Assembly: GCA_017536885.1 (NCBI GenBank)
Contig: JAFWCM010000039.1
Location: forward strand, 1-39,159
Reading direction: 5' to 3'
DNA: 39,159 bases
DNA from: Solobacterium sp.
Lineage (GTDB): Bacteria > Bacillota_I > Bacilli_A > Erysipelotrichales > Erysipelotrichaceae
Shown here: piece by piece, positions 1 to 14,701 of the stretch
Position numbering within the stretch: the first letter of the stretch is position 1
Layout: each line of letters opens with the position of its first letter
The notes under the pieces: generated by a model
What the model was told of the DNA's origin: nothing
Database searches by the model: none
What the model saw: the letters and a program-made list of their open reading frames with translations, nothing else
Translations under genes and position numbers: made by a program

Positions 1-1056
1 CAGAACATTCCTGGCAAAGCGGAAGAAATCTTCGCCCGTCTTTTCGGCACCGTGTTCATCATATTCCCGGGCGGCACCGTACTGGACGAACTGATCCGTA
101 TCCGGATCGACGATGTAGATGCTGAAATAGTCTGCCGCAAGAGCTTCCGACACCTTTTCGTAGGTAATCTTGTCCGCGGCGGCTTTCCTGGCATCCGCAA
201 GCTCCTGCTTCATCGCATCTTCCCGGCGGATTTCATCATCCACATCCTTGAATCCCATCATGACCCCGATCTTCTCTCCGGGCAGATATACCTTATCAAG
301 ATCGATGCGGTAATGCCGGTTTCCGCCTTCCATTTCCCGCAGGAAGCTGACCTCGAACTGATCTTTCGTGCGGAACTGTTCCAGGATATAGGGAAGTCCG
401 ATCTGTACCTGCATGCGTTTGCGGTCTTCTTTGGCGACCATGGTATTGACATACTCCGTTTTGGTATCCGTATACCGGGTGTGGCTCAGGGCGTTGCGGA
501 TCGCTTCCGCATGCACTTCATCGAGATCGGTATGATAAAGAACACTCTCCTCGCTTTCCACATCGCTGATCAGCCACATCGTATTGTAGGCATTGGTCAA
601 TGCGGAGATCACCGCATCCCTTGTCGACTTGTCCATGTCCCGCTGTTCTTTCTTCTCCGTGATATCCGAGATGAACACCACATAAACACCGCCGTAGGAT
701 TTTGTCTCGCTGTAGTGGCCGTAATCATCCACCCAGCGGATCCTGCCGTCACGGCGGGTGATGCGGTATTCCGCATAGTCATTGTGATCTTCGCTTTCGG
801 CGACCTGCCGGAGGATGGATGCGCTGATTCTTTCGTAATCCTCCGGATAAACCATTCCCCGGAAGGTATATCCGGTCAGCTCTTCGAATTCCTTCTGGCC
901 GGCACAGCCGAAAATATCAAACACCGCCTGATTGGCGTAGATCAGCTTTTCCGGTTCCTCCGCTTTATAAATGAAGAAGCCTCCCGGCATATGTCCGCCG
1001 ATTTCTTCGATGACGGCAAGACTCTCTTCCGTCAGTTCAAACTTTCTACCTGCCAT
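1..1056 (-). CDS. PAS-domain signalling protein, C-terminus cut by window edge
   Basis: 352 residues are visible, reading leftward from an ATG at 1056 with CGGAGG four bases upstream. The reading frame stays open to base 1, so the output domain lies outside the window. Residues about 10-130 form a PAS_3-like fold (GGFFIYKAEEPEKLIYANQA, then YRITRRDGRIRWVDDYG and YVVFISDITEKKEQ), which is the usual PAS plus PAC pattern. A second, less conserved sensor-like segment follows, and the visible part ends in what may be another PAS start (DYFSIYIVDPDTDQFVQYG). In related Bacillota such N-termini usually precede GGDEF or histidine-kinase domains; which one applies here cannot be seen. No signal peptide or membrane helix is visible, so it is probably cytoplasmic. 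A hairpin separates it from the lipoprotein gene upstream, so it is probably its own unit. The nearby c-di-GMP genes make a GGDEF output plausible. Confidence 0.75.
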   Translation of the reverse strand, partial: MAGRKFELTEESLAVIEEIGGHMPGGFFIYKAEEPEKLIYANQAVFDIFGCAGQKEFEELTGYTFRGMVYPEDYERISASILRQVAESEDHNDYAEYRITRRDGRIRWVDDYGHYSETKSYGGVYVVFISDITEKKEQRDMDKSTRDAVISALTNAYNTMWLISDVESEESVLYHTDLDEVHAEAIRNALSHTRYTDTKTEYVNTMVAKEDRKRMQVQIGLPYILEQFRTKDQFEVSFLREMEGGNRHYRIDLDKVYLPGEKIGVMMGFKDVDDEIRREDAMKQELADARKAAADKITYEKVSEALAADYFSIYIVDPDTDQFVQYGAAREYDEHGAEKTGEDFFRFARNVL

Positions 1057-1226
1057 CTGGCCTCCGTTTCGAGTTCACCGCTTTCGGACAGGGCATGAAT
1101 GCATGACCCTTCCGCTGCCGGAACTCCTTTTCTTTATTGTCGCACCGAACTGCGGCTTTGAAAAAGGGACAGTTTATCTCAGCCATGGTTTTCTTTCATG
1201 GGAAACTCCCGGAACGGCCAACATGA

Positions 1227-1267
1227 AAAGGACAGAAGTACCGGATGGAAATCTTCTTCTGTCCTTT
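1227..1267 (-). terminator. Intrinsic terminator after the 1327-3936 gene cluster
   Basis: The arms AAAGGACAGAAG (1227-1238) and CTTCTGTCCTTT (1256-1267) are exact reverse complements around a 17-nt loop. Read leftward the hairpin ends in TTTTC, as expected after the lipoprotein gene. The plus-strand T-run is broken, so leftward termination is favoured. Confidence 0.6.
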
Positions 1268-1326
1268 CTTCACAATCCCGATAATGGCGAACGCAGTTCT
1301 GCGTCCCTCACAGGCATGGGGAAAGA

Positions 1327-1728
1327 TCACTCGGTCAGATCAATCTCCCCTTCCAGCATGCCGGATCCTTTTCCGGTCCTGCAGTCAATCGTATACCAGT
1401 CCAGGGTAGCGGTATGATCGCTGAGATCCTCATACAGATGGATCGTCACAAGATCTCCGTCCCTGCTGTCCACGACAACCACCGGCGGTGTAAAGTAATG
1501 GTGCTTTTCATAGTAGCTGCGGGCAAGTACGCACAGCTCTTCGTCGCTGTATCCGTCCGGTTTCGCATCAGGCTCTTCTGTGAGCTCAGGTGTTGGCGCG
1601 GGGGATGGAATCTCGGCAGGAGCGGCGCCCGGTTCCGGTGTTTCAGCATTTGGCCGGACACTGCCGCTTTTCGCGCATCCATTCAGAAGAAACAGGCACA
1701 GCAATGCACTCAGGAGTCTCCGGTTCAT
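1327..1728 (-). CDS. Small secreted lipoprotein of unknown function
   Basis: 133 aa. The N-terminus is a lipoprotein signal peptide (MNRRLLSALLCLFLLNGC) with lipobox LLNGC, so the mature protein would start at Cys18 and be anchored on the outer face of the membrane. Residues 20-60 are a low-complexity Pro/Glu/Ala linker. The folded part is about 75 residues (from GYSDEELCVLARSYYEKHHY) and contains a beta-rich segment, VVVVDSRDGDLVTIHLYEDL. I do not recognise a named family. Its start overlaps the stop of the upstream gene by four bases (ATGA), so the two are translationally coupled. It is the last gene of the leftward cluster and is followed by a hairpin. Confidence 0.8.
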   Translation of the reverse strand: MNRRLLSALLCLFLLNGCAKSGSVRPNAETPEPGAAPAEIPSPAPTPELTEEPDAKPDGYSDEELCVLARSYYEKHHYFTPPVVVVDSRDGDLVTIHLYEDLSDHTATLDWYTIDCRTGKGSGMLEGEIDLTE

Positions 1729-2666
1729 GCGCTTTCCTCCTTTTCCCGGCGGTAATACTCAACAATGATGCGAATCGGAAAGGGAAGTGCATACAGCTTT
1801 CCGGAAATCACTTCCGCTGTCTGAATCATCTGAAACACGGAAGAATCATCGAACTCCCCCGGATCCGCCGCCCGCAATTCATGAACGCAGAGTTCAAAGG
1901 TTCCGAGATTCTCATCCTCAGGCACGGCGGTGTAAAGAACCGCTCCGTCATTTTCCCTGGTTTTGACGGCGTGAACTTCGGCCAGCTTTGCGGCATTGCA
2001 TTCAGGGCTGAGAGTTTTCTTTCCCTGTTTTCCCGGAACCGGTTCCGCGGTCCCGGTGTCGGCAATGACCGCCTTATTTCCTTCATCGTCCGCAAGCAGA
2101 CAGAGGATACGGTTCTTTTCCTCTTTCTTAAAAAGAGAACGGTATTCCTTTGCGGACTCCCCGCGTTTCCATTCGATGAATCCGCCCTCATGAACCCTCA
2201 GTACCGTAAGATCGGAAGAATCCTCTTCAAATACCGCAAAGCTCCAGTCCCGAACTAATGCGCAGAGCTTAGCGGAGAGATAGGAAAGAACGCCGGTGCG
2301 GATCTCGTCCCTGATGAGCAGTTCATAGAGCAGATTTCGGACCGCCGCGGTATCGATGGAAAACGTGTCCTGATACTCATCCTGATACTCTTCGAGATAC
2401 ACCTTTGCATAAATGCTTTCGGGGCAGGATACAACTGCCGGATTCGTTCCGGAGACAATTACCAGATGCCACCCGTTTTCCTGCACTTCATTCCCGTACT
2501 TCACGATGACACCGAGCTTTCCCAATACATTGGCGAGCTGTTCACGAAACCGTCCGGAAAAGGGATCGCCGACCTGATCGATCAGAAAGACGGTCTTTTC
2601 CATAAACGCTTCCGCCATGTCTTCGGATTCTTTTCCGTACAGTGCGGATTTGAATGTTCTGCTCAT
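1725..2666 (-). CDS. Hypothetical protein, 313 aa
   Basis: Begins at an ATG preceded by GGGAAGGAGGCAGAAA, a strong ribosome binding site. No signal peptide or membrane helix is seen. The N-terminal part (EKTVFLIDQVGDPFSGRFRE, then LGKLGVIVKYGNEVQENGWHLVI) looks like an alpha/beta fold. The C-terminal half is beta-rich with many charged residues. I recognise no catalytic motif and assign no function. It overlaps the lipoprotein gene downstream (ATGA) and lies 54 bases after the 331-aa gene, which supports one transcript. The unusual pairing of a soluble protein coupled to a tiny lipoprotein suggests they act together, but that is only inference. Confidence 0.75.
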   Translation of the reverse strand: MSRTFKSALYGKESEDMAEAFMEKTVFLIDQVGDPFSGRFREQLANVLGKLGVIVKYGNEVQENGWHLVIVSGTNPAVVSCPESIYAKVYLEEYQDEYQDTFSIDTAAVRNLLYELLIRDEIRTGVLSYLSAKLCALVRDWSFAVFEEDSSDLTVLRVHEGGFIEWKRGESAKEYRSLFKKEEKNRILCLLADDEGNKAVIADTGTAEPVPGKQGKKTLSPECNAAKLAEVHAVKTRENDGAVLYTAVPEDENLGTFELCVHELRAADPGEFDDSSVFQMIQTAEVISGKLYALPFPIRIIVEYYRREKEESA

Positions 2667-2720
2667 TTTCTGCCTCCTTCCCTACTGTTTTTTTCTTCGG
2701 CAAACGCACTTCCAAAGGCG

Positions 2721-3716
2721 TTATTCTGCCTCTTTCAAAGACGCTTCTTCTGACGCCGGTTTTTCAAGAAGCCCGTCGCATTGAAGGCGGATCTCTTCGT
2801 TTTCAATGAACCGGGAACGAAGCTCCCGGATGATGTCACAGTCTTCCGCTGTCATTGCATAATTCCCGGCATGGGAGAGAAACCTGCGGATGATCTCTTC
2901 CCGGTTTTCCAGAGCGGAAAGACCCGGCATGGGTCCTTCGTCCATCAGGGCAGAGATAATCCTTTTGATCGCCGCAAATTCCGAAGCGTCCGGTCCAAGC
3001 CTCAGCACCTCTTCTGCGCCTGATTTTCTCCAGGCGGCAAGAGCGGAGTAGGAAGGAAGAATGTCATTTCTTACCCCTTCCATGAGAATCCATCTGCGGA
3101 TCTCCTCATCTTCTGCCTCCAGCCGCTCCAGGGCATGAATCCTTCCCCAGCCGGTCACGCTTTTTGCAAGATCGAAGATCTCCCGGTCTGCGTTCTTCCA
3201 TTTCTTCATGATAAAGACGGCGAACAGGGTGAACTCATCACTGCGTCCCACGGTTCTTACCATCCGCTTCAGATCTTCCTCTTCCTCTGTGTCAAACAGT
3301 TCCAGAATCGAAAGCCCGAGCTTTACCATCTCGGTCTCATCCGCTTCCTGAAGCTGTTTCATACCGAACAGAAACAGATTCTCCGCATTCAGATCCTGCG
3401 CATGATTCATGATCCAGCTCTGCATCTCATCGATCACGCCGAGAGTGCGGTACTTTTCAAGGACCGGCATAAGGGCAGCTTCCGCTTCTTCCCATCGGTG
3501 TTCCGAACTCTGTGAAATTCCTTTTTCCATGGCCGACCGGTCCGCATCCGAAAGACGGGGAAGATTCATGTGATACAGAAGAATTCCGTCTCTCGCCCCG
3601 TCCGCAAACTGAATGCCGGAATCTGTGCTTTCAGGCAGGGAAAAATCCGGCGGAAGACATCCGTCTTTCAAAGCGGCCTCAATCTTCTTATACAGAGACT
3701 GCACTGACTTTCCCAT
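2721..3716 (-). CDS. Hypothetical helical protein, 331 aa
   Basis: Almost entirely alpha-helical, acidic and soluble. Repeated helix pairs such as SIMNHAQDLN-type, ILELFDTEEEEDLKRMVR and GWGRIHALERLEAEDEEIR look like HEAT- or ARM-style repeats and would give a scaffold or adaptor rather than an enzyme. No catalytic motif, signal peptide or membrane segment is visible. The ATG at 3716 has AAAGGAA about ten bases upstream, a moderate ribosome binding site. It sits between the zinc-ribbon gene (37-base gap) and the 313-aa gene (54-base gap) in one leftward cluster. No function assigned. Confidence 0.72.
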   Translation of the reverse strand: MGKSVQSLYKKIEAALKDGCLPPDFSLPESTDSGIQFADGARDGILLYHMNLPRLSDADRSAMEKGISQSSEHRWEEAEAALMPVLEKYRTLGVIDEMQSWIMNHAQDLNAENLFLFGMKQLQEADETEMVKLGLSILELFDTEEEEDLKRMVRTVGRSDEFTLFAVFIMKKWKNADREIFDLAKSVTGWGRIHALERLEAEDEEIRRWILMEGVRNDILPSYSALAAWRKSGAEEVLRLGPDASEFAAIKRIISALMDEGPMPGLSALENREEIIRRFLSHAGNYAMTAEDCDIIRELRSRFIENEEIRLQCDGLLEKPASEEASLKEAE

Positions 3717-3753
3717 ACATTCCGGTTCCTTTTCTTACCTTCAATTATATATT

Positions 3754-3936
3754 TCAGTCTTCCATGATCGCGAGAAATTCCAGAAAGTCCCAGTCCTTCT
3801 TCGCCTCTGCGCATCTTTCGCAATAGACCTCTCTCTCAATCACCGCATACTTTTCATATTTCCGAATCTTCTTTCCGCATCTGCAGCATTTCACTTCTTT
3901 CTTTTTCTGCTTTTTATCATTGCCGAATAATCCCAT
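3754..3936 (-). CDS. 60-aa zinc-ribbon protein
   Basis: The chosen start is the ATG at 3936, preceded by GGCGGAGG seven bases upstream. An in-frame extension upstream to 4086 has no comparable site and a composition unlike protein. The protein begins MGLFGNDKKQKKKEVKCC and contains CCRCGKKIRKYEKY followed by CERC, a two-knuckle CxxC...CxxC zinc ribbon. The lysine-rich N-terminus suggests nucleic-acid or phosphate contact. It is the first gene of the leftward cluster. A TATAAT-like hexamer on the minus strand (4066-4071) lies 130 bases upstream and could be its promoter. Function unknown. Confidence 0.72.
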   Translation of the reverse strand: MGLFGNDKKQKKKEVKCCRCGKKIRKYEKYAVIEREVYCERCAEAKKDWDFLEFLAIMED

Positions 3937-4086
3937 GTTCGTTTCCTCCGCCTTAATGATCTCCGCCCGCGCTGACAAAAAAACTTCCATGGGAGAATGC
4001 GGGCACAAAGCCATTCCGCAATCTTCCCGGCATGGGTGCGTTTGCCGATATGGTGGTACACTGAAATTATAAAGTGAGTACAGCAT

Positions 4087-5434
4087 ATGAAATCAGAACC
4101 CCATACCGACATGCCTTCCGATGAGGAAGTCCGCAATGCATTACAATGCCTGGATGCGCCTCTAAGTCCATGGAAGCTCTTCCCTTTGCCTTTCAGCATG
4201 TCATGGCCATGCTTGTCACCAACCTCGTTCCGATGACGCTGGTCACTCTGGCGGCGGTACCTTCCGTCAGTGAAGCGGATATCCTGGTCCTGATCCGGAA
4301 TGCAATGGCTGCGGCCGGGCTCGCGACATTGTTACAGACATTTCCCATAGGAAGGATCGGCTCGGGGCTTCCCATCTTCATGGGGGCGAGCTTCACCTTT
4401 ATCGTGCCCTTAACCGCCATCGCCTCATAAAACGGATACGGTGCCGTCATCGGAACGGTCATCGCCGGGGGTATCTTCGAAGGGCTTCTCGGCCTTTCGG
4501 CCAGATACTGGAAACACATCCTCACGCCGATTGTCTCCGCGGTTGTCATCACCGGCATCGGGCTTTCGCTTCTTCCCACTGCCGCAAGATCCTTCGGCGG
4601 CGGGGATACCCCCGACTACGGTTCAATGGTCAACATCCTGATCAGAAGCGTGACGCTGCTTTCCTGCATCCTCTGGCAGATTCATGCCAAAGGAGTTCAC
4701 AAACAGCTCTATGTACTCGTGGGTCTTGCGGTCGGGTATCTCCTGGCTGTGATCACAGGAACTGTTCATTTTCAGGATCTCTCAGACTGCGGCCTGATCG
4801 CCATTCCGAGACTTCTGCCTTTTCAGCCTTTGTTTCGGCCCGATGCCATTCTTTCCGTCTGTGTGATCTATCTTGTCTCCGCTGTGGAAACGATCGGCGA
4901 CGCATCGGCTCTGGCCGGCGGGGCGCTGGAACGTCAGATCAGCGGCAGGGAAGTCTCCGGTGCGATTGCGGCCGACGGATTCGGATCCGTGCTCGCCGGC
5001 CTCTTCGGCATCACTCCGATCACCTCCTATTCGGAGAATGTCGGCATCACGATCATGACCCGCGTCGTCAACCGAGAAAAATCTCACTGATCGGGGCGCT
5101 GATCATGATCATCGCCGGCTTTCTTCCCCCGATAGGCATCTTCCTCAGCTCCATACCCAGTTCCGTCATCGGCGGCGTTCTGCTTGTGATCATGGGACAG
5201 ATCGTGGTTTCCGGCTTTGAGATGATCGCAAAGGCCGGCTTCACTCCGAGAAACAAACTCATCGCCGCTTTGTCCCTGGCCTTCGGTGTAGGCTTCACCA
5301 CCTCCGGTGAAGCGGGCATCTGGGCAAACTTTCCCGTGTTCGTGCAGTCGATCTTCTCTCAGAATGTCGTTTCGGTGATGTTCGTGACCGCGCTTCTGCT
5401 CGATCTTCTTCTGCCGAAGAATATCGAGGAATGA
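4087..5434 (+). pseudogene. Broken NCS2 (uracil/xanthine-type) permease
   Basis: The three reading frames together spell one NCS2 nucleobase:cation symporter. The start MKSEPHTDMPSDEEV (frame 1, ATG 4087) leads into ALPFAFQHVMAMLVTNLVP (frame 3) after a frameshift near 4165-4180. The second segment carries the family hallmarks GLPIFMGASFTF and ENVGITIMTR (the [QEP]NxGxxxxT[RK] motif of transmembrane helix 10). It is interrupted by an in-frame TAA at 4428-4430, where reading on gives NGYGAVIGTV. A second frameshift near 5072-5085 moves to frame 2 (SLIGALIMIIAGFLPPIG), which runs to the TGA at 5434. Three independent lesions make real gene decay more likely than sequencing error. The intact ancestor would have imported uracil, xanthine or a related base. 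The amino acid pattern is still well kept, so the decay looks recent. Confidence 0.88.
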
Positions 5435-5435
5435 C

Positions 5436-5486
5436 GAAAAGAAAAACAGCGAAGCTTCCGCCGGTTCATTCCTTTCACGGCTTCGC
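5436..5486 (-). terminator. Terminator at the 3' end of the manA operon
   Basis: GCGAAGC (5449-5455) pairs with GCTTCGC (5480-5486). Read leftward the stem is followed by TGTTTTTCTTTTC. It overlaps the last codons of manA and lies between two convergent genes. Confidence 0.5.
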
Positions 5487-6362
5487 ATACGCTGTCATAA
5501 GAACAGCTCTGCCGGAGATTCCGGCTTTTTCTTTCGGAAACAGAATCACGGAATACCCCTTGAAGACGGAAATGCCGTTCCAGAGGAAGGAACCCTCCAG
5601 CACGGTGATGCATGCGAAGACCTCCTCAGGATTTTCAATTTCTGTTTTCCCTTCGATTCGGCGGGAGCTGATCCGATAGCGCTCTGCTTCATAGACGCGC
5701 CCCTCTTCAAACCGCGTCTTCTCTGCCGCAAGCTCCGTATTCAGACAGGCCAGCGCTTTGGAAAGATGAAGCTGACGTTTATTTCCCTGACTGTCGGTGC
5801 GGTCGTAATCGTAGAATCGATAGGTCACATCATTGCTCTGCATGATCTCATAGACCAGGCTTCCGGCGGAGATCGCATGCAGTGTGCCGGGTCTTACATG
5901 AACGTAATCATGATCTTCGATCGCCATGCGTGCGTAGATCTCTTCCCAGCGGTTTTCCGCGATGAGCATTGGAATCTCTTCCTTCCGGCATTTCGTACCG
6001 GCGACGATCGGTGCCCCGGCTCTGAGAAATACCCAGGACTCCTCCTTGCCGTCTTCAAGACCCTCCAGCTCTTTCGCCTTTTCTCTGTCGGGATGAACCT
6101 GCAGGGAGAGATCTTCTCTTGCCGAGACAATCGTGATCGTTAAGGGAAACGGACCAGTCCAGCCAAACTGGTCCGCATGCATGCGGTAATACTCCGCCAG
6201 GGTAATCGGCGGAGTCAGAGAAACGATCAAAGAAGAGCACTTCGGATCGGCACATACCGTGCAGGCTTCTCCGATCATTCCGTCAATGTCATCGCAGCCG
6301 TAATCGAGAAGTGCCTTGTCTCCCCAGATCTTGGCAAGCGGAGCAGGTTTCAGTACAAGCAT
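5475..6362 (-). CDS. manA: Mannose-6-phosphate isomerase, class I
   Basis: Interconverts mannose 6-phosphate and fructose 6-phosphate in the cytoplasm, linking mannose use to glycolysis and to GDP-mannose synthesis for surface glycans. 295 aa, within the range of the short Bacillota ManA forms. The zinc-site pattern is visible: Gln88 and His90 in LSLQVHP, Glu108 in KEESW and His162 in RPGTLHAI. The expected basic residue Arg182 lies in TYRFYDYDR. The C-terminal cupin-like domain is complete. The ATG at 6362 has GGGGAG seven bases upstream. It starts 30 bases after the SBP-PAS gene and is the last gene of the leftward c-di-GMP operon, followed by a hairpin. Its position suggests co-expression with the c-di-GMP proteins, which often control exopolysaccharide, but that link is inferred. 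Confidence 0.92.
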   Translation of the reverse strand: MLVLKPAPLAKIWGDKALLDYGCDDIDGMIGEACTVCADPKCSSLIVSLTPPITLAEYYRMHADQFGWTGPFPLTITIVSAREDLSLQVHPDREKAKELEGLEDGKEESWVFLRAGAPIVAGTKCRKEEIPMLIAENRWEEIYARMAIEDHDYVHVRPGTLHAISAGSLVYEIMQSNDVTYRFYDYDRTDSQGNKRQLHLSKALACLNTELAAEKTRFEEGRVYEAERYRISSRRIEGKTEIENPEEVFACITVLEGSFLWNGISVFKGYSVILFPKEKAGISGRAVLMTAYAKP

Positions 6363-6392
6363 CTGTTCTCCCCGGAGCTTTCGTGCACGCTC

Positions 6393-8399
6393 TTACTCCT
6401 TTGGCATACTTTCCGCATAGGTCACGACGCAGTAGCCGGGACGGACAATCTGCCGGACCGTAAAATGATAAGCCCTGCCGCTCAGGGAATCGGTATGATC
6501 CCGTTCCACCACTTCGCCTTCATAAGCGGCACGTCTTACATCCTCATACCAGATCTCATCCAGATGGGGATACAGTTCCCTGACCTTCTTTCCGATCACT
6601 TCCTGGCGCGGCCGCTGGCCGAGTTCTGAGAACATGCGGTTTGCGTAGATAACCTCGGCGTCGTACAGCCGGCTGTGCTCGGCGTGGGTCACATGATATA
6701 CGCTGACGGAAATGGGCAGATCATCAAAGATCCGGAAATCCTCTTCCGCTGGTTCCTTTTTCTGCACTTCTTTTTCTTTTCTTCCTGCCGCTATGCTTCT
6801 TGCAAGAACGATCAGAAGGGCAAGAATCATAGCGAAGCCGCCGAAGACGAGCAGGAAGTTCTGCTTCAGAAATTCCTCCGTCGAAATCTTTGCGTCTTCC
6901 GTGAAATAGTAGGTCAGCGACGCGTTGACGGTCGAGGCCGGCACGAGGCTTGTGATTTTGGAAAGGATGGAATAGAGAATGGTGTCACTGCGGTTCACCG
7001 CAAAGCAGTAATCCATCCCGACTCCCGTAGACCAGGTAGTCAGATGATACTTCCGGCACGTGTTGGAGATGTTGTTGTAGCGATAGTTACTGATCAGCAG
7101 GCAGTCCGCATTCCGTCCGGCAATCGCCTTCAGGCACTCTTCCGTATTCTCGTAATACGTCGCAAGCCAGTCGGGGAAGTGGTCCAGAAGAAACATGTCG
7201 TAATTCGGATTGTCCTTGTTCACCGCCACCGTGATCCGGTCTTTCTTCGCGAAGTCATACTGTTCCCCTTCGCGCACGATCGCCGACATATCGGTCCGCA
7301 TCAGTGCCGGGGTGATGAAGACATTGCTCACCTCGCCGTCATAGGGGGTGAGGTTGGCCGGGAACACGCAGTCCACCTCGCCCTTCCTGAGTGCCGCAAT
7401 GGCATCCCCGGAGCTTGGATAGCAGACGGCTTCAAAGTCGATATGAGCGTTTTCAAGACAGTCCGAGGCAACGATCAGATAATCCTTCAATGCCCCGGTC
7501 AGCTCCCCCGTTTTCGGATCCTTCGCGCAGAATGCCAGGTAATTGTCCTGATAGCCGACGCGGATCACCCCGTGGCGAGAGAGCCAGGTGCTCTCTTCCG
7601 TGCTGAGATAGCGGTTCAGCCCGGCGCTGTGGAGATATTTCTGGTAGAGATTCTCATTGTAATACTGATCTTCATTCTGAATCCGGGAGAGAGCGCTGTT
7701 GAGTTCTGTCAGCAGCTGCGGCCGGTCATTACTGACCGCAAAGTAGAAATCGGAGGTTCCGATCCGGCATACGGGTTTGACACCCGAGCTTTCAAAGAAG
7801 CCATCCAGAGACAGGTAGAGATCGATCTTTCCCCGCTTCAGCTCCAGGATGTTTTCTTCCTCGGTGCCGCTCAGTTCAATCAGTTCCGCTTTGACCCCGT
7901 TGGCCTCTGCCCACTCATTGAAATACCCGATCTGCACACTGCCCTTGTTGGCGCCGATCCGTTTTCCCTGAAAGGTGGAATAGTCTTCGACGGAGATATC
8001 GTTGTTGGTTTCCTGGGCGTAGAGATAGTATTGTTCGGCTCCCATGGGAAGCGCAGAGAACAGCATTTTCTCCGCCCGTTCCTCGGTAAAGGAGACATCG
8101 CTCAAAAGATCGATTCTTCCGTCTTTGAGCATTTCCAGAAGATCCGACCAGCTGCCTTCCACATATTCATAGGTCCATCCGGTATAGGCCGCAATCTTCT
8201 GCTGGTAATCATAGGAATAGCCCGAGCGCCTTCCCAGTTCATCGGTTGTGTTGAACGGAGATTCGAACCAGCCGACACGTACGATCTGCCCCTTTTCCTG
8301 TGCCTTGATTCCTGTAGGAAACATCATCAATACAAGGACTGCCGGCATCACCGCAGCCATTGCGATCTTCATCAGTTTTCTGCCTATCGAACTGCTCAT
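6393..8399 (-). CDS. Receptor with two periplasmic-binding domains and terminal PAS, no output domain
   Basis: 668 aa. A signal anchor (about residues 8-33) is followed by two tandem SBP_bac_3 (PBPb, amino-acid-binding type) domains. The first is about 37-265 (VRVGWFESPFNTTDELGRRS). The second is about 275-505 (IRVGYQDNYLAFCAKDPKTG). A membrane helix follows (about 517-540, FLLVFGGFAMILALLIVLA) and then one PAS domain (about 560-668, PISVSVYHV...VIYANRMFSELG). The protein ends right after the PAS, with no GGDEF, EAL, kinase or methyl-accepting domain. The extracellular half is a close paralogue of the EAL protein at 10043-12964, sharing strings such as WTYEY, DLLSDVS and PNYD. It probably binds an extracellular solute and signals through a partner, perhaps the diguanylate cyclase encoded 24 bases upstream. 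Start: ATG with GGGAG nine bases upstream. Confidence 0.88.
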   Translation of the reverse strand: MSSSIGRKLMKIAMAAVMPAVLVLMMFPTGIKAQEKGQIVRVGWFESPFNTTDELGRRSGYSYDYQQKIAAYTGWTYEYVEGSWSDLLEMLKDGRIDLLSDVSFTEERAEKMLFSALPMGAEQYYLYAQETNNDISVEDYSTFQGKRIGANKGSVQIGYFNEWAEANGVKAELIELSGTEEENILELKRGKIDLYLSLDGFFESSGVKPVCRIGTSDFYFAVSNDRPQLLTELNSALSRIQNEDQYYNENLYQKYLHSAGLNRYLSTEESTWLSRHGVIRVGYQDNYLAFCAKDPKTGELTGALKDYLIVASDCLENAHIDFEAVCYPSSGDAIAALRKGEVDCVFPANLTPYDGEVSNVFITPALMRTDMSAIVREGEQYDFAKKDRITVAVNKDNPNYDMFLLDHFPDWLATYYENTEECLKAIAGRNADCLLISNYRYNNISNTCRKYHLTTWSTGVGMDYCFAVNRSDTILYSILSKITSLVPASTVNASLTYYFTEDAKISTEEFLKQNFLLVFGGFAMILALLIVLARSIAAGRKEKEVQKKEPAEEDFRIFDDLPISVSVYHVTHAEHSRLYDAEVIYANRMFSELGQRPRQEVIGKKVRELYPHLDEIWYEDVRRAAYEGEVVERDHTDSLSGRAYHFTVRQIVRPGYCVVTYAESMPKE

Positions 8400-8423
8400 C
8401 TTTTCTCCCGCTCCGAAACGGAT

Positions 8424-10046
8424 TCATTTTCTTCCCGCCTTGCGGATCCGCTTGTCTTCGTACATGCGTTCATCCGCCCGCCGGATCACATCGTTCACAT
8501 TGGCATCGCTCTTCGGATCATAGACCGCAACGCCCATCGCAACGTGAACCTGTTCCCATTCATTTTTCGCCGATGCGCTGATTTCCTTCATGGAATCCTT
8601 AAACTGCTTTACCAGCGCATCTCTGTTTTTCAGGTCATCATTCTGCAGGATTACTGAGAATTCGTCTCCGCCGATCCGGAACACGGGGCTGTGCGCAAAC
8701 ACCCGGCAGATCAGTCGGCTGGCTGTCTTGAGATAGATGTCGCCTTTTTCATGTCCGTAGACATCGTTGATGTATTTCAGGTTGTCGCAGTCGAATACGC
8801 CGACCGCAAACTCCGCACCCTGACCTGTTTTGATCTCTTCCTGCAGGTTGTCGATGAAGGTGTTGTAAGCGCCCTTGTTGCGCACCGAGGTCAGTGCGTC
8901 CACATACACCCGCTTGTTGAGATCGGAGATATGATCCTTCATATGTCCGGCCAGGCGTTTGAAGGTAGCGGTGAGGCGGCCGACTTCATCATCCCTGTCA
9001 TAGTCCAGAGTGAAGTCGTAGTTGCCGCGGTCCACCTGATCCGCCGCTTTGGTGAGATCTTCCAGCGGTCTGGTGATGCGCTTTGCATAGTACATCGTAA
9101 AGCCGATTGAACCCGCCAGCACCACTCCGGCAAAGATCAGGATGTTGTAGAGAAGCCGTTTCCAGTCGCCCTCGGTCTCATAGACCGGCACCGTGACATT
9201 CAGCCGCATGCCGTTGCTTAACGGCAGCCAGGCCGCGATCTTCTCCGTGCCGTCATAGGGATAGCGGATGAAGGTGCTGCGGGAGACCGCATCTTCGGGA
9301 ACCTTCAGCCGTTCGTCTTCCCCGAGGGCACTGACATCGATCCGGGGGTGGAAGAAGATATTTCCCTCCGCATCGCTCAGGAAGGCATAGCCGTTGTCGT
9401 AGAGGCGGATGCTTTCCACCTGTTCGGCCATCGTGGAATAATCCACTTCGATGCCGACAACTCCCACGAAGTTTCCCCGCCAGTAAATCGGCTCATTGTA
9501 GGAGATGACCCGTATGTCGAGATTCTCGGTGACATAGGGCGGCAGCCAGACCGGCTCGCCGTTGTATTTGGGAACCGTGAACCAGACCAGCTTTGACGTA
9601 TCCTTCGTGTCATAGCTGCTGATATCGGTCACCTCATGTTCGGTAAATCCCTCCCCGTCAAGGTCGGTATACCAGAAGCCCTTGACGTTGTCGGAGATCT
9701 CGGGATCAATGCGGTAGTAATAGGTCAGAACCCCGTTGGTTCTTGCGGCCATGATGTCAAACTGATCCCGCACGCGCTCCATGTGCGCCGCGAGCTTCTC
9801 TTCTTCCAGTCCGTCCAGATCCGCTTCGACAAAGGCCGCCACCTTGCGGACGGATTTCTGCACGCTGTTGAAGTAGTAGTTGAGGTTTCGCTCTCCCGTC
9901 TCACACAGCAACAGAAGCAGCTGATCGGATTTCTGCTGTTCGGTGGTGCGGATGAATACCACGCTGAGCATGGTCATGCTTGTCACGGTGACGATGATCA
10001 CGCATACGGTAAGCAGTATCATTCTTGTTCGTATGGAACGCATCAC
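8424..10046 (-). CDS. Diguanylate cyclase: dCache, HAMP, GGDEF
   Basis: 540 aa. Makes cyclic di-GMP from two GTP at the membrane under control of an outside signal. Transmembrane helix 1 is about residues 9-32 and helix 2 about 299-319. The 260 residues between them have the dCache pattern (WYTDLDGEGF, FVGVVGIEVDYSTM, DAEGNIFFHP). HAMP is about 320-372 (AKRITRPLEDLTKAADQVDRG). The GGDEF domain is about 379-536 with an intact signature RIGGDEF at 457-463 and the DxLT entry (YVDALTSVRNKGAYN). No RxxD inhibitory site lies five residues before GGDEF, so product inhibition at the classical I-site is not expected. The start codon overlaps the stop of the upstream EAL gene by four bases (ATGA), so a c-di-GMP synthase is translationally coupled to a phosphodiesterase. 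Confidence 0.93.
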   Translation of the reverse strand: MMRSIRTRMILLTVCVIIVTVTSMTMLSVVFIRTTEQQKSDQLLLLLCETGERNLNYYFNSVQKSVRKVAAFVEADLDGLEEEKLAAHMERVRDQFDIMAARTNGVLTYYYRIDPEISDNVKGFWYTDLDGEGFTEHEVTDISSYDTKDTSKLVWFTVPKYNGEPVWLPPYVTENLDIRVISYNEPIYWRGNFVGVVGIEVDYSTMAEQVESIRLYDNGYAFLSDAEGNIFFHPRIDVSALGEDERLKVPEDAVSRSTFIRYPYDGTEKIAAWLPLSNGMRLNVTVPVYETEGDWKRLLYNILIFAGVVLAGSIGFTMYYAKRITRPLEDLTKAADQVDRGNYDFTLDYDRDDEVGRLTATFKRLAGHMKDHISDLNKRVYVDALTSVRNKGAYNTFIDNLQEEIKTGQGAEFAVGVFDCDNLKYINDVYGHEKGDIYLKTASRLICRVFAHSPVFRIGGDEFSVILQNDDLKNRDALVKQFKDSMKEISASAKNEWEQVHVAMGVAVYDPKSDANVNDVIRRADERMYEDKRIRKAGRK

Positions 10047-12964
10047 ACATCACCTCCTCTGTTCTCCAGAAATCTCTTTTCAAAATCCGAAGGATGAACC
10101 GGCTTCGAGAAACAGAACCCCTGCACCAGGGTGCAGCCGAGATCTTCCAGAAGCTTCAGCTGCGCTTCGCTCTCGACCCCTTCGGCAATCACCGGAATGT
10201 GCAGGCTGTCCGCAATGCCGAGAATCAGCGCCACCAGCTGAACATTCTTCCCTTCGCTTCCGATATTGTGAATAAACGTCCGGTCCATCTTCAGCACATC
10301 GATCGGCAGAGCCGAAAGCATGCTTAAGGAGGAATAGCCGGTGCCGAAATCATCCATCTCCACGGTATAGCCCTTCTTATGGAGGTTTTCCACCACGTGA
10401 ATCAGCTCATCCTCATTTTCCGTGTACGCCGACTCCGTGACCTCAAGCTCCAGGGCATTGTGTTCCAGTCCGTTCTGCTGAAGGATGTTGTCCAACACGC
10501 TTTCAAGCTTCGGATCGAAGACATCCACCCGCGAGAGATTGACCGAGACGGGAATCGTCACTCCGAATTCCGCCCGCCATCTGGCAATCTGCCGGGCGGC
10601 GAGGGACCATACATATTTATCCACTTCGGCGATCATTCCCGCGCGTTCCAGCAAAGGAATAAAATCGGGCGGCGCAATCATGCCGAGCTCGGGATGCATC
10701 CAGCGGATCAGCGCTTCCGCCCCGACCAGTTTCGGCGGCTTCTGGCTGATATCGAATTTCGGCTGATAGTGCACTTCGAACTCATAGCAGTCCAGAGCTC
10801 TTCTTAAGTCATTGAGCAGACGCTGATCGAGCAGCTCCTTCTGCTGCAGTTCTTCGTTGAAGATAATAAGATGTTCCTTGAAATGACCTCTTGCCTTGGA
10901 ACAGGCGGTGCGGGCCATATCAAACATCTGTACCGGCTCCACCCCTTCCTGGTAGGGCCTGACCCCCATCCGCAGACGGATGTGAGCGCCGGGGGCGAGG
11001 GTATCGATCTTGCCCTGAAGGCGGTCGAATATTTCCTTGTAAGCATCGCTGTGATCGCAGTACAGATCGAAGCGGTCGGCGCCGAACCGGCCGGCGATGC
11101 CGTTTTTCTCCTCCGCGAACAGACGCATGTCATTGCCGAGAATCCGCAGGATCTGATCACCGAAGTCCCGTCCGTTTAAGGCGTTGATCGCATGGAACTG
11201 CTCGATATTGACGACGATGGCATCCCTTGGCGTTTCGGGATGTTCGCGGTACATCGCATTGGCATACTGGAAAAAGTAATCGCGGTTGTACAGCCCGGTC
11301 AGACTGTCGGTTTCGGTGGCCGAAATCAGTTCCTTTGCCTTCTTCTCCGCCTTCATGCTTTTTAAGAGAAGGTAAAGGATGACGGCGATCAGAACAGCGC
11401 TCACCGCAATCACCGCCGCGAGGTTGTCAGAGACGATATCGCCGATCGTGCGCTTGGAATCCTCGGTGATGTAATAGGACAATGCGGAGTTGACGGCGGA
11501 AGTCGGAATCTGGCTGATCATCTTGGAAAGAACGGAATACAGACGCGTATTCCCCTTTTTCACGGCAAAGCTGTAATCAATGCATGTCGCCGTCGGAAAC
11601 GTCGTCAGATGAAGCTTCTCGCAGAGCCTTGAGATGTTGTTGTAGCGATAGCTGCTCACCAGCACGCAATCCGCCACATGATCGCGTACGGCTTTGAGAC
11701 AGGCTTCGGTATCTTCGAAATAAACCTTGCGCCAGGTGGGATAGTGATCGTAGAGAAAGGCGTCGTAATTCGGATTTCCCTGGTTGACCGCCGCAACCAC
11801 ATATTCCCGGTTGGCAAAGGTATTCACATCCGCCTGGCGGATGATCGCGAAGATATCCGTGTTCATCAGAGACGGAGACATCGTGATGCCGAGCTTCTCG
11901 CCGTCAAAGCCGCCGAGATTGGCCGGGAATACGCAGTCCACCTCATCATTTTTCAATGCCTCGATCGCCGCCTCCACGGTGGGATATGCCGCTGTCTCAA
12001 AGGTGAGATCAGCGTTTTCCAGGCAGTCTTCCGCATAGCCGAGATAATCCCGGATCGCTCCTGTCAGCTCCCCGGTTGTGCGGTCCTTTGCACAGAAGGC
12101 AAGGTAGTTATCCTGATAGCCGACGCGGATCGGACCGTGACCGGAAAGCCAGCTCAGCTCTTCCGGGGAGAGGAAGGAATTTGCGCCGGAAGTCCGGATG
12201 TACTTTTCAAACATCTGTTGGTTGAAATACCGGTTCTCATCCTGAATTGCCTGCATGGCGAGGTTCAGTTCGTTCAGAAGATCCGGACGGGAATTGCTTA
12301 CAGCGAAAAAGAAATCGGAAGAGCCGACCTTGAATACCGGTACGGCACGTTTAGGATTCACAAAGGAGTCCACGGTGACATAGGCATCAAGCTCTCCGGT
12401 CTCAAGTTTTGCCAGGGATTCATCTTCCGTATTCACAAGTTCAATGAGCTCTGCACTCACCCCGTTTTGATCCGCCCACTCGCGGCAGTAATCCGCCTGA
12501 ACGCTGTCCTTGTTTGCGCCGATCCGCTTTCCGTTCAGACTATGGGCATCGGAAGAGGTGATCTCGCGGTTATCGGGGCCGACAAAAAGATAGTATTCCT
12601 CGGCGCCCATAGGAAAATCCGGAAAGAGCATTTTTGTGTTCCGCTCTTCGGTGTAGGAGACATCGCTCAATAGATCGATCTCTCCGTTCACCAGCATCTG
12701 AAGCAGTTGAGACCAGCTGCCGCCGATATACTCATACGTCCATCCGGTATAGGACGCAACCTTCAGCTGATACTCATAGGCATAGCCGGAGCGTCTTCCG
12801 AACTGATCTATTGTGTTGAATGAAGAATCGTACCAGCCCACCCGTACGACTTTCTGTGCCGGCTCCTCGGCGGATACCGGAAGCGGAATGATCATTCTAA
12901 CAGTCAGCAGAAGGAACAGGACTGCCGTAAACATCCTTTTCAGGTATCTGTGAATTTTCACCAT
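10043..12964 (-). CDS. Tandem binding-domain receptor with degenerate GGDEF and active EAL phosphodiesterase
   Basis: 973 aa from the ATG at 12964 (GAGGGG just upstream). A GTG further out at 13030 has no ribosome binding site and would precede the signal peptide. Order: signal peptide (1-33, ending PVSAEE); SBP_bac_3 domain 1 (about 37-265); SBP_bac_3 domain 2 (about 275-505); membrane helix (about 511-534); GGDEF-like (about 548-700); EAL (about 712-965). The GGDEF signature is GADRF (628-632), so cyclase activity is unlikely. The EAL domain keeps Glu750 (AEALIRW), Asn809, Glu841 (LEVTES), Asp871-Asp872 (DDFGTGYSS), Lys892, Glu928 and Gln948, so it should hydrolyse c-di-GMP. An extracellular small solute, perhaps an amino acid given the domain family, would control breakdown. 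It is the first gene of the operon. Confidence 0.93.
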   Translation of the reverse strand: MVKIHRYLKRMFTAVLFLLLTVRMIIPLPVSAEEPAQKVVRVGWYDSSFNTIDQFGRRSGYAYEYQLKVASYTGWTYEYIGGSWSQLLQMLVNGEIDLLSDVSYTEERNTKMLFPDFPMGAEEYYLFVGPDNREITSSDAHSLNGKRIGANKDSVQADYCREWADQNGVSAELIELVNTEDESLAKLETGELDAYVTVDSFVNPKRAVPVFKVGSSDFFFAVSNSRPDLLNELNLAMQAIQDENRYFNQQMFEKYIRTSGANSFLSPEELSWLSGHGPIRVGYQDNYLAFCAKDRTTGELTGAIRDYLGYAEDCLENADLTFETAAYPTVEAAIEALKNDEVDCVFPANLGGFDGEKLGITMSPSLMNTDIFAIIRQADVNTFANREYVVAAVNQGNPNYDAFLYDHYPTWRKVYFEDTEACLKAVRDHVADCVLVSSYRYNNISRLCEKLHLTTFPTATCIDYSFAVKKGNTRLYSVLSKMISQIPTSAVNSALSYYITEDSKRTIGDIVSDNLAAVIAVSAVLIAVILYLLLKSMKAEKKAKELISATETDSLTGLYNRDYFFQYANAMYREHPETPRDAIVVNIEQFHAINALNGRDFGDQILRILGNDMRLFAEEKNGIAGRFGADRFDLYCDHSDAYKEIFDRLQGKIDTLAPGAHIRLRMGVRPYQEGVEPVQMFDMARTACSKARGHFKEHLIIFNEELQQKELLDQRLLNDLRRALDCYEFEVHYQPKFDISQKPPKLVGAEALIRWMHPELGMIAPPDFIPLLERAGMIAEVDKYVWSLAARQIARWRAEFGVTIPVSVNLSRVDVFDPKLESVLDNILQQNGLEHNALELEVTESAYTENEDELIHVVENLHKKGYTVEMDDFGTGYSSLSMLSALPIDVLKMDRTFIHNIGSEGKNVQLVALILGIADSLHIPVIAEGVESEAQLKLLEDLGCTLVQGFCFSKPVHPSDFEKRFLENRGGDV

Positions 12965-13336
12965 ACTCCCCTCTCGAACGTCTGTTGTGAATCTCCGTTT
13001 CAAAAAGCGGCGCAGTTTCCGGGATCCCACAAAAAATATGAATCATCAGAAAATGCGCTTCTTCAGAAAAACAGAGGCAAATCAGGTATCTATAACATGA
13101 TTTTAAAATAATGCGGCTGTTTTTCAAACTATCTTCTCTGCTCTCTTCCTGCCATTGTCGGCAGTAGTATCTCCGTTTTCCTTCCGGACAATGTGCATGC
13201 CGACAATGATCAGGGGCAGTTCCGGGCAAAAGCGGGCACGTTTGCCGGAAATAAAAGAGAGAACCGCCGGCCGCTATGCATGCAGGTACCTTTCCGCCGC
13301 CGGCAATCTTCACTATAGTTAAAGCAGAGCTCAGTC
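12965..13336. other. Divergent intergenic region, 372 bp, with nested inverted repeats
   Basis: Lies between the leftward c-di-GMP operon and the rightward MATE gene. It holds the leftward promoter (13100-13127) and, on the other side, a possible rightward TATAGT (13313-13318). ATTGTCGGCA (13154-13163) is exactly complementary to TGCCGACAAT (13198-13207), and GGACAATG (13186-13193) can pair with the same left arm. TTCCGGGCAAA pairs with TTTGCCGGAA at about 13219-13250. I compared it by eye with the class I c-di-GMP riboswitch and did not find the conserved core. Confidence 0.5.
13100..13127 (-). promoter_or_regulatory. Promoter of the c-di-GMP/manA operon
   Basis: On the minus strand: -35 TTGAAA (13127-13122), a 16-bp spacer, and -10 TAAAAT (13105-13100). 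Each hexamer matches five of six consensus positions. It would leave a leader of about 130 nt before the ATG at 12964. Confidence 0.5.
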
Positions 13337-14701
13337 ATGAAAAACGAAACAGAAGAAAAGAAGAGAACCATCGATATGACGGAAGGCCCGATCCTGAGAC
13401 AGATCGTTTCTTTTTCCTTTCCTCTGATGCTCGGAAATCTGTTTCAGATGATGTACAACACGGCCGATACGATCGTCGTGGGTAACTTTGTCGGCAAGGA
13501 AGCACTGGCGGCGGTGGGTGCCACATCGATGATCACCAACCTCGCCGTGTTTTTCTTCAGCGGCTTTGCGACGGGTGCCTCGGTAGCGATCGCGCGGGCC
13601 TTTGGATCCCGGGACAGAGAAAAGGTTCATGTCGCGGTTCAGACCGCCTTTACGATGACCCTGGCGATTGCGGTGATTTTCACCGCCGCCGGCATCCCGC
13701 TGGCCCGGCCGATTCTGAGACTCATGGGAACGCCGGAAGATGTCTTTCCGGAAGCGGCGAAGTACCTTCAGATCTATTTTGCGGGCATTTCGGGATTACT
13801 GATCTACAACATCGGCACCGGCATCCTGCGCTCGGTCGGTGACAGCCGAAGGCCCCTGGTCTTTCTGATCTTCACCAGCCTGCTGAACATCCTGCTGGAC
13901 ATTGTACTGGTCGTGGTGTTTCAGGCAGGCATCGCCGGCGCGGCGTTTGCGACGATCCTGGCTCAGTTTGTCTCGGCGGGGCTGATCATTTCCCTTCTTG
14001 TATCAACCGAGGATGTCTATCGTCTCAATCTCTCGGACCTCGATATCGATCTCAGCCAGCTCCGCATCATCGTCTCCGTCGGTCTTCCCGCCGGCCTGCA
14101 GTCCGCCTTTACGGCCCTCTCCAATATCGTGATGCAGTCATACATCAACTCCTTCGGCTCGGATGTTATGGCCGGCTGGAGCTCCTACAGCAAGGTCGAC
14201 CAGTTCGTGATGCTGCCGGCATCGAGCTTCGGCATCGCCGCTACGACCTTCGTCTCCCAGAATGTCGGCGCCGGGAAAATGGAACGGGCGGAGCGCGGCA
14301 GCATGCATGCCGCATTCACCGCTGCCGCGGTCTGCGGCATCATTCAGGTTCTCGGCTGGATCTTCGCGCCTGCCGTGATCCGTCTGTTCACCCAGGATCC
14401 CGCGGTCATCTCCTGCGGTGTCGTGTTCATCCGCGTCAACTTCCTCTTCATCACCGCCAATGCGATCGACAATGTGCTCATGGGCACCCTGCGCGGATAC
14501 GGGGATTCCCGCGGACCGATGTACATCATGATCGCCACCCATGTCTTCTTCCGCCAGCTGTATCTCTTTGTGGTCACCCGCTACATCATGAACACCCCGG
14601 CCGCGGTCGGCTTTGCCTATCCGGCAGGCTGGCTCTCCTGTTTCTCACTGCTGGTGCCGTATTATCTCTATCGCCGCTCTCAGGGATTCCTGCGCAGCTG
14701 A
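13337..14701 (+). CDS. MATE family multidrug or metabolite exporter
   Basis: 454 aa, the usual length of a 12-helix MATE transporter. These inner-membrane antiporters expel drugs or metabolites in exchange for Na+ or H+. The N-terminal signature is clear: PILRQIVSFSFPLMLGNLFQ, then MYNTADTIVVGNFVGKEALA and VGATSMI. The second half repeats the pattern (GLPAGLQSAFTALSNIVMQS; FGIAATTFVSQNVGAGKMER). All helices read through without a break. The start at 13337 has only a weak GCAGAG; an alternative ATG at 13376 would remove 13 residues before the first helix, so the exact start is uncertain. A strong hairpin terminator follows. Substrate unknown. Confidence 0.9.
   Translation: MKNETEEKKRTIDMTEGPILRQIVSFSFPLMLGNLFQMMYNTADTIVVGNFVGKEALAAVGATSMITNLAVFFFSGFATGASVAIARAFGSRDREKVHVAVQTAFTMTLAIAVIFTAAGIPLARPILRLMGTPEDVFPEAAKYLQIYFAGISGLLIYNIGTGILRSVGDSRRPLVFLIFTSLLNILLDIVLVVVFQAGIAGAAFATILAQFVSAGLIISLLVSTEDVYRLNLSDLDIDLSQLRIIVSVGLPAGLQSAFTALSNIVMQSYINSFGSDVMAGWSSYSKVDQFVMLPASSFGIAATTFVSQNVGAGKMERAERGSMHAAFTAAAVCGIIQVLGWIFAPAVIRLFTQDPAVISCGVVFIRVNFLFITANAIDNVLMGTLRGYGDSRGPMYIMIATHVFFRQLYLFVVTRYIMNTPAAVGFAYPAGWLSCFSLLVPYYLYRRSQGFLRS

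Follow-up and report, generated by a model that had tools for sequence, protein, structure and literature searches.

Receptors of the VFT and Cache types usually carry their own enzyme. In the sensor kinases BvgS and EvgS, for example, two VFT domains, a transmembrane segment (TM) and a PAS domain are followed by a kinase. CdgH of Vibrio cholerae, a tandem PBPb-GGDEF protein (5GZS), binds L-arginine with its first VFT through T104 and R109, among other residues (PMC5431781), and RmcA of Pseudomonas aeruginosa, a receptor with an SBP_bac_3 domain, is listed as a phosphodiesterase, with L-arginine (PMC8846402). Receptors with the dCache_1UR domain bind uracil plus SCFA, and the cyclase M8 carries such a domain (PMC12415202). 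The window that we analyzed, a 39,159-nt stretch of DNA from Solobacterium sp., holds four consecutive minus-strand genes in head-to-tail order, P1, P2, P3 and a ManA-like class I phosphomannose isomerase, and the third of them has the look of a receptor that carries no enzyme. We propose that P1, P2 and P3 form a conserved cassette that has probably spread horizontally and would set c-di-GMP from several outside signals with P3 as its regulatory subunit, a reading that we hold to be about evenly poised between right and wrong. No published description of such a cassette was found in the open-access literature searched.

The genes and domains expected from the original prediction, an EAL protein, a GGDEF cyclase, an SBP-PAS receptor and ManA on the same strand, are all present, with Pfam recognizing SBP_bac_3, GGDEF and EAL in P1; dCache_1, HAMP and GGDEF in P2; and SBP_bac_3 and PAS_4 in P3. 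P1 has two candidate starts, a GTG at 13030 and an ATG at 12964, and we consider the ATG the better one because a Shine-Dalgarno-like sequence (GAGAGGGGAGT / GAGAGGGGAG) sits ahead of it; P1 would then span 10043..12964 and have a leader of ~130 nt. A promoter had been placed at about 13.1 kb, and a promoter-like site (TTGAAA-16-TAAAAT, 10/12 matches) does lie at 13100..13127 on the minus strand, ~136 nt upstream of the ATG; its position is good, but the 5 such sites in the 12-kb region are no excess over the shuffle mean of 7.3, and the site is statistically not significant, a weak candidate. Farther upstream, the gene for a MATE transporter starts at 13337 and runs in the divergent direction. 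The supposed ATGA coupling between P1 and P2 did not hold for the window, where the junction actually reads TGATG, with one base common to the stop and the ATG start (or, alternatively, GTGA with a GTG just before); an ATGA junction is present in the relative L031. P2 (8424..10046, minus strand) likelier starts at the ATG at 10043 than at 10046, in agreement with the TGATG junction. P3 (6393..8399, minus strand) follows after 24 nt and the ManA-like gene (5475..6362, minus strand) after another 30 nt, and directly behind the latter stands a terminator-like hairpin (5447..5463, minus strand; CGGCGGAAGCTTCGCTG then TTTTTCTTTT). A scan of the P3-manA gap gave no terminator-like sites. Given the P1/P2 overlap, the short gaps and the hairpin right after manA, a single transcript from P1 to manA is plausible. 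Convergent with manA, a xanthine/uracil permease gene (NCS2; 4626-5434, plus strand) is spread across two or more frames and looks broken or badly assembled. Rfam matches in the window were none.

P1 consists of an N-terminal membrane or signal segment, VFT1 (SBP_bac_3), VFT2, a TM, a degenerate GGDEF domain and an EAL domain, the membrane segments being assigned by eye. As had been noted, the GGDEF domain is degenerate: its motif reads GRFGADRF, the intact GG[DE]EF signature is missing, and among 10 aligned P1-type rows GADRF is found in 6 (the window included), EADRF in 1 and other degenerate forms in 3. The EAL domain, by contrast, gives a strong Pfam match (E 1.1e-67), has as its best PDB relative 4rnh, a 'Motility regulator', and retains what we take to be the EAL motif and catalytic residue set (E of EAL, N, E, DD, K, E, Q) in 10/10 P1-type rows, with small changes beside the catalytic residues in some of them. 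P1 is thus predicted to be a c-di-GMP phosphodiesterase receptor in which the GGDEF half is degenerate.

P2 is organized as TM, dCache_1, HAMP and GGDEF. The GGDEF motif is intact in 10/10 P2 rows, and the alignment has no RxxD ahead of it at the position that we assume for the I-site, so that the earlier description of a cyclase without an I-site stands and P2 is a predicted diguanylate cyclase with product inhibition at the I-site absent. What had been overlooked is that P2 has an outside sensor of its own. The closest solved domain to its dCache is that of the Roseburia uracil/SCFA receptor 9HVJ (E 2.1e-34). The structure model of P2 itself is mediocre (pLDDT 72). When residues are mapped through the alignment to 9HVJ, with numbering by residue spacing and by eye, the four SCFA residues of the solved receptor (Y225/H238/Y273/K280; PMC12415202) correspond to Y220/H233/Y262/K269 of P2 and are present in 10/10 P2 rows. 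The set is not specific to dCache_1UR, however, because the same source also gives it for the dCache_1AA receptor PctA. The eight-residue uracil pocket, with A4 as the reference, is only partly retained: 5/8 residues are identical in the window (R, T, W, Y, N), F129 is replaced by W, D205 by E and N178 by T in 10/10 P2 rows, and N180 is kept in 9/10. The changes from F to W and from D to E are conservative; D205 of A4 is required for uracil binding (PMC12415202). With 3/8 pocket residues different, D205->E and N178->T among them, the ligand of the P2 dCache may have shifted from uracil, and these two fixed replacements count against the pyrimidine-like input in our preferred reading. Elsewhere in the same genome, a P2-like dCache-HAMP sequence with 52% identity (L120; G000:C15:1463-2593) lies in a frame that continues, by eye, into a GAF-like and histidine-kinase-like part.

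P3 begins like P1, with an N-terminal membrane or signal segment, VFT1, VFT2 and a TM, and then has a PAS domain and a stop. The two receptors align over both VFTs with 49% identity in 600 columns and part ways in the cytoplasm, GGDEF-EAL in the one and PAS in the other, bearing out the claim that they are paralogous receptors with different ends. Neither Pfam nor the reading frame reveals an enzymatic output domain in P3; the frame stops 19 residues past the PAS_4 match, no histidine kinase follows the PAS, and six relatives end similarly. In the order tandem VFT-TM-PAS (the TM judged by eye and from a predicted helix), P3 agrees with BvgS, and a fold search with its structure model (a single chain, mean pLDDT 80) returned the periplasmic part of BvgS first (4q0c, E 7.3e-29), then GlnPQ SBD1-SBD2, EvgS (9ilw, rank 4) and CdgH (5gzs). 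VFT2 superposes on VFT2 of BvgS (3mpk) with Z 23.9 over 230 aligned residues at rmsd 2.8 and on the PBP domain of RmcA (7ejg) with Z 21.7 over 232 at rmsd 3.0. Alignments over the whole tandem give large rmsd, 13.1 against 4q0c, so what is matched are the single VFTs and not their mutual arrangement. From the model, P3 resembles a BvgS sensor half that lacks the kinase.

Amino-acid SBPs have an ammonium-binding Asp five residues after a conserved Asp, a spacing also found in AncQR, and it counts against an amino-acid ligand that D199 in VFT1 of P3 stands six, not five, after D193. Other residues of VFT1 speak for such a ligand. S103, R108, S154 and Q156 are kept in 22/22 rows and D199 in 20/22, and our reading of the alignment is that S103/R108 are the counterparts of T104/R109 of CdgH, which contact the bound arginine there (PMC5431781). 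VFT2 has, by eye, no arginine equivalent to R108 of VFT1.

A scan with short peptide patterns of P3 over 84,980 species genomes (genome_contigs), which finds close relatives only, gave 17 loci. At 11 of these (L031-L039, L046 and L047), P2 or a piece of it adjoins a tandem-SBP receptor, and the records label them Clostridiales, Clostridia, Oribacterium, Oscillospiraceae, Christensenellaceae, Atopobiaceae and Coriobacteriaceae. Because the association recurs at 11/17 loci, labelled with two phyla, we conclude from gene order that P1-P2-P3 is a real conserved unit. It is intact, with a PAS-ended P3, in L031, L032, L034 and L035; in L033, P1 (6481-7249) is broken, with an internal loss, and L047 has only pieces of P2 and P3 (9631-10816). 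L038 has P2 cut by the contig end, and in L039 P1-P2 is accompanied by a third receptor that carries GGDEF-EAL. In the seven relatives measured, the gaps from P2 to the third gene are 12, 4, 4, 4, 11, -4 and -4 nt for hand-chosen starts. In the locus recorded as Oribacterium sp. KHPX15 (L036), P2-P3 occurs without P1. Four others of the 17 (L041, L043, L044 and L045), and besides them L116 and L117, have a tandem SBP that runs into a GGDEF (Pfam checked for L041 and L117), and L042 has a P1-type receptor alone. At L040, an amino-acid permease is fused to a P2-type GGDEF (5816-8119), and a gene for a tandem-SBP receptor lies ~1.6 kb away. In L046, P2 is preceded by four tandem genes (120-7256), each of ~590 residues and with similar ends; a PIG-L deacetylase domain is present in the one that was scanned and in a relative in L037.

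The headless state of the third gene is not universal, since L037, L038, L039 and L046 have GGDEF-EAL in place of the PAS. An output domain may thus have been lost, and P3 could be a decoy or scavenger whose PAS is a leftover and which does not signal at all. We think this improbable: the PAS end is kept in 7/7 aligned P3 rows with many invariant residues, and a PAS of the same type ends another protein of the same genome (C245), there after a GGDEF.

If P3 does signal, the question is to which partner. In the GGDEF tree, the GGDEFs of P2 and of the fused receptors fall into one 17-row clade (100/99), its 17th row being the permease-GGDEF of L040, and the clade contains 0 of the 27 other GGDEFs of the window's own genome that are in the tree (64 matches in the genome). 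For this background, 28/29 loci were extracted and 27 placed; L025 and L026 are missing, and L014, the window's own P2, was excluded deliberately. L110_R, which has two stops, was kept with X in the GGDEF and SBP trees, and L110_R and L111_R form long branches. Two observations connect the receptor with the cyclase: Oribacterium keeps P2-P3 without P1, at least among the matches listed for its draft genome, where the best P1 match is P3 and the others have <=36% identity, which ties P3 to P2; and tandem VFTs are fused to GGDEFs of P2's own clade, which ties the receptor family to the cyclase. The weak point of the second is that the SBP halves of the fused receptors cluster with P1 rather than P3 (89/99), so that the fusion links the family, and not P3 alone, to the cyclase. 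It also has to be said that P1 and P2 offer no PAS with which that of P3 could pair. P3 might instead act on P1, as a brake or ligand-gated partner in a VFT heterodimer, leaving P2 an independent cyclase that shares the transcript. The two proteins share both VFTs as paralogues, dimers are formed by the tandem VFTs of both CdgH and BvgS (PMC5431781), and, besides the window, P1 and P3 occur together in the four intact cassettes and in the one with a broken P1. Set against this are the Oribacterium P2-P3 pair, with no full P1 among the matches listed, and the fusion of the receptor family to P2-type GGDEFs, and we consider direct action on P1 as the sole role of P3 possible but unlikely. Our preferred reading remains that of P3 as a regulatory subunit acting most likely on the cyclase.

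The cassette has probably spread horizontally, as suggested by the placement of the window's P2 with four P2s from Actinomycetota (96/81), by the GC content of the Oribacterium P2-P3 pair (0.50 against 0.42 in its flanks) and by the patchy occurrence of the receptors in the window's own genus; most of the loci are MAGs, and the Actinomycetota labels are those of the records. Tandem-SBP matches with E <1e-100 were found in 3/35 other same-genus genomes and in 0/24 of the same order, where two genomes have weaker matches (1.2e-47 and 7.0e-41). The four loci taken from these three same-genus genomes contained no full-length P2, two of them ending near the receptor, and a search of 392 phylum genomes for P2 with E up to 1e-80 returned the own genome only. 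The receptor of L042, a locus whose record says Erysipelotrichaceae, clusters with those of G010 and G022, two same-genus genomes (100/99), a hint that the window comes from this family. Incorrect binning of the window is weakly excluded by its GC content, 0.52-0.54 compared with 0.50-0.53 in six other stretches of the genome.

ManA serves mannose breakdown and GDP-mannose supply, and the original prediction took the gene as a pointer to a mannose-containing glycan, a model in which manA is the output gene dedicated to the operon. The encoded protein is homologous to a solved ManA (1qwr, E 2.3e-35, residues 4-260), with metal-ligand residues that look kept by eye at the positions where we presume them to be; it barely exceeds the Pfam cut-off for PMI type I (22.9 vs 22 bits) and stays below that of NCBIfam TIGR00218 (73.3 vs 116.2 bits). 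Its place 30 nt after P3, with the terminator-like site behind manA and none in the gap, speaks for a link to the operon, and in the window manA is probably co-transcribed with P3. By tblastn, ManA was found at 0/17 of the relatives' loci, 16/17 of which extend at least 1 kb past the receptor or cassette (in L040 the extension is 2 bases), and the genes listed after P3 in L031 to L036 vary by locus. In the reverse direction, a P1- or P3-like receptor was found near the relatives' ManA at 0/29 loci (~1.5-kb flanks, E up to 1e-8), a sample that is part of the ManA matches listed for the relatives; in the same test, the window's own locus (L079) was positive. The GGDEF profile matched in the flanks of 1/29 (L104), a blunt test that would miss the window itself because its nearest GGDEF is 2.1 kb away and the flanks reach ~1.5 kb. 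The best match to the window's ManA in 39 relatives has 44% identity, and its own genome has six ManA-like matches, the window's and five others. For two of the six, the window's and one on C212 (1.8 kb), a GGDEF lies no more than 2.1 kb away, and the C212 case might be seen as favoring the glycan; with a rough chance of 0.1 per gene, or 0.42 that one or more of the other five have such a neighbor, it does not stand out. We therefore rejected manA as a part of the cassette: it is not a member of the conserved unit, and control of a mannose-containing glycan is a very improbable reading of the operon, the more so as the genome yielded no PilZ.

The search for PilZ targets elsewhere in the genome that had been advised came back empty, with PilZ at 0 in a genome that has 64 GGDEF and 25 EAL matches (controls matched in 5/14). 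Among 60 relatives, the own genome included and many of them drafts, PilZ was found in 1 and GGDEF in 34; among 10 cassette-type host genomes, it was found in 1, Oribacterium. A PilZ protein was accordingly dropped as a candidate, and output of the cassette through one is unlikely. Matches to the P1 domains, on the other hand, number dozens in 5/5 cassette hosts examined. The genome's sole GEMM-I match (L114; G000:C60:4023-4098, minus strand) scores exactly the gathering score of 35 bits, in a search in which no control matched, and lies ~40 nt ahead of a DUF5067 gene. A GEMM-II search had no match in the genome and none in the controls either, so it does not speak for absence.

In the mechanism that we favor, VFT1 of P3 would bind a small amino-acid-like solute, and its TM and PAS would relay the signal to the product of a neighboring gene. 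That partner is most likely the cyclase P2; P1 is a possible further one, if the paralogous VFT halves of the two receptors pair. P2 would read a second input, probably an SCFA in the membrane-proximal pocket and probably a uracil-like molecule in the distal one; P1 would counteract P2 under the control of its own VFTs, and manA would be a passenger or accessory at this locus and not one of the genes that define the cassette. From the idea that an outside solute shifts synthesis against breakdown, we can thus retain, by inference, one sensory unit with a competent-looking EAL and GGDEF; the manA output we cannot. More tentatively, and with less than even confidence, P3 may be a split BvgS-type receptor that acts in trans on a separate cyclase and/or a phosphodiesterase paralogue in a cassette that integrates amino-acid-like, fatty-acid and pyrimidine-like signals, and this in gut bacteria with c-di-GMP enzymes by the dozen and mostly no PilZ receptor; c-di-GMP targets of a class not yet described would then be implied. 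If true, a conserved VFT-PAS receptor that has no enzyme and is kept with a cyclase would serve c-di-GMP signaling as a regulatory subunit in trans; the fused tandem-SBP-GGDEF relatives provide a ready comparison for the split P3/P2. The cassette would also suggest candidate gut signals, amino acids, acetate/propionate and uracil-like compounds, and the absence of PilZ from 9/10 cassette hosts, five of five of which examined have P1-domain matches by the dozen, raises the question of the c-di-GMP targets there.

Among the described systems, BvgS and EvgS resemble P3 in the VFT1-VFT2-TM-PAS order and in the fold matches to 4q0c and 9ilw, and differ in the kinase after the PAS, P3 having no histidine kinase, receiver or Hpt. 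For P2, the dCache_1UR domain is the closest known sensor, sharing 4/4 SCFA residues and differing at 3/8 uracil residues (PMC12415202). RmcA (PMC8846402) likewise combines an SBP_bac_3 receptor with a phosphodiesterase, and VFT2 of P3 matches its structure 7ejg; P1, in contrast, contains two VFTs and is accompanied by a cyclase and a headless paralogue. CdgH (PMC5431781) similarly ties tandem amino-acid-type VFTs to c-di-GMP, and its architecture is that of the fused relatives L041, L043-L045, L116 and L117. In the window, unlike in CdgH, the headless sensor is a protein distinct from the cyclase, and the EAL resides on a paralogous receptor.
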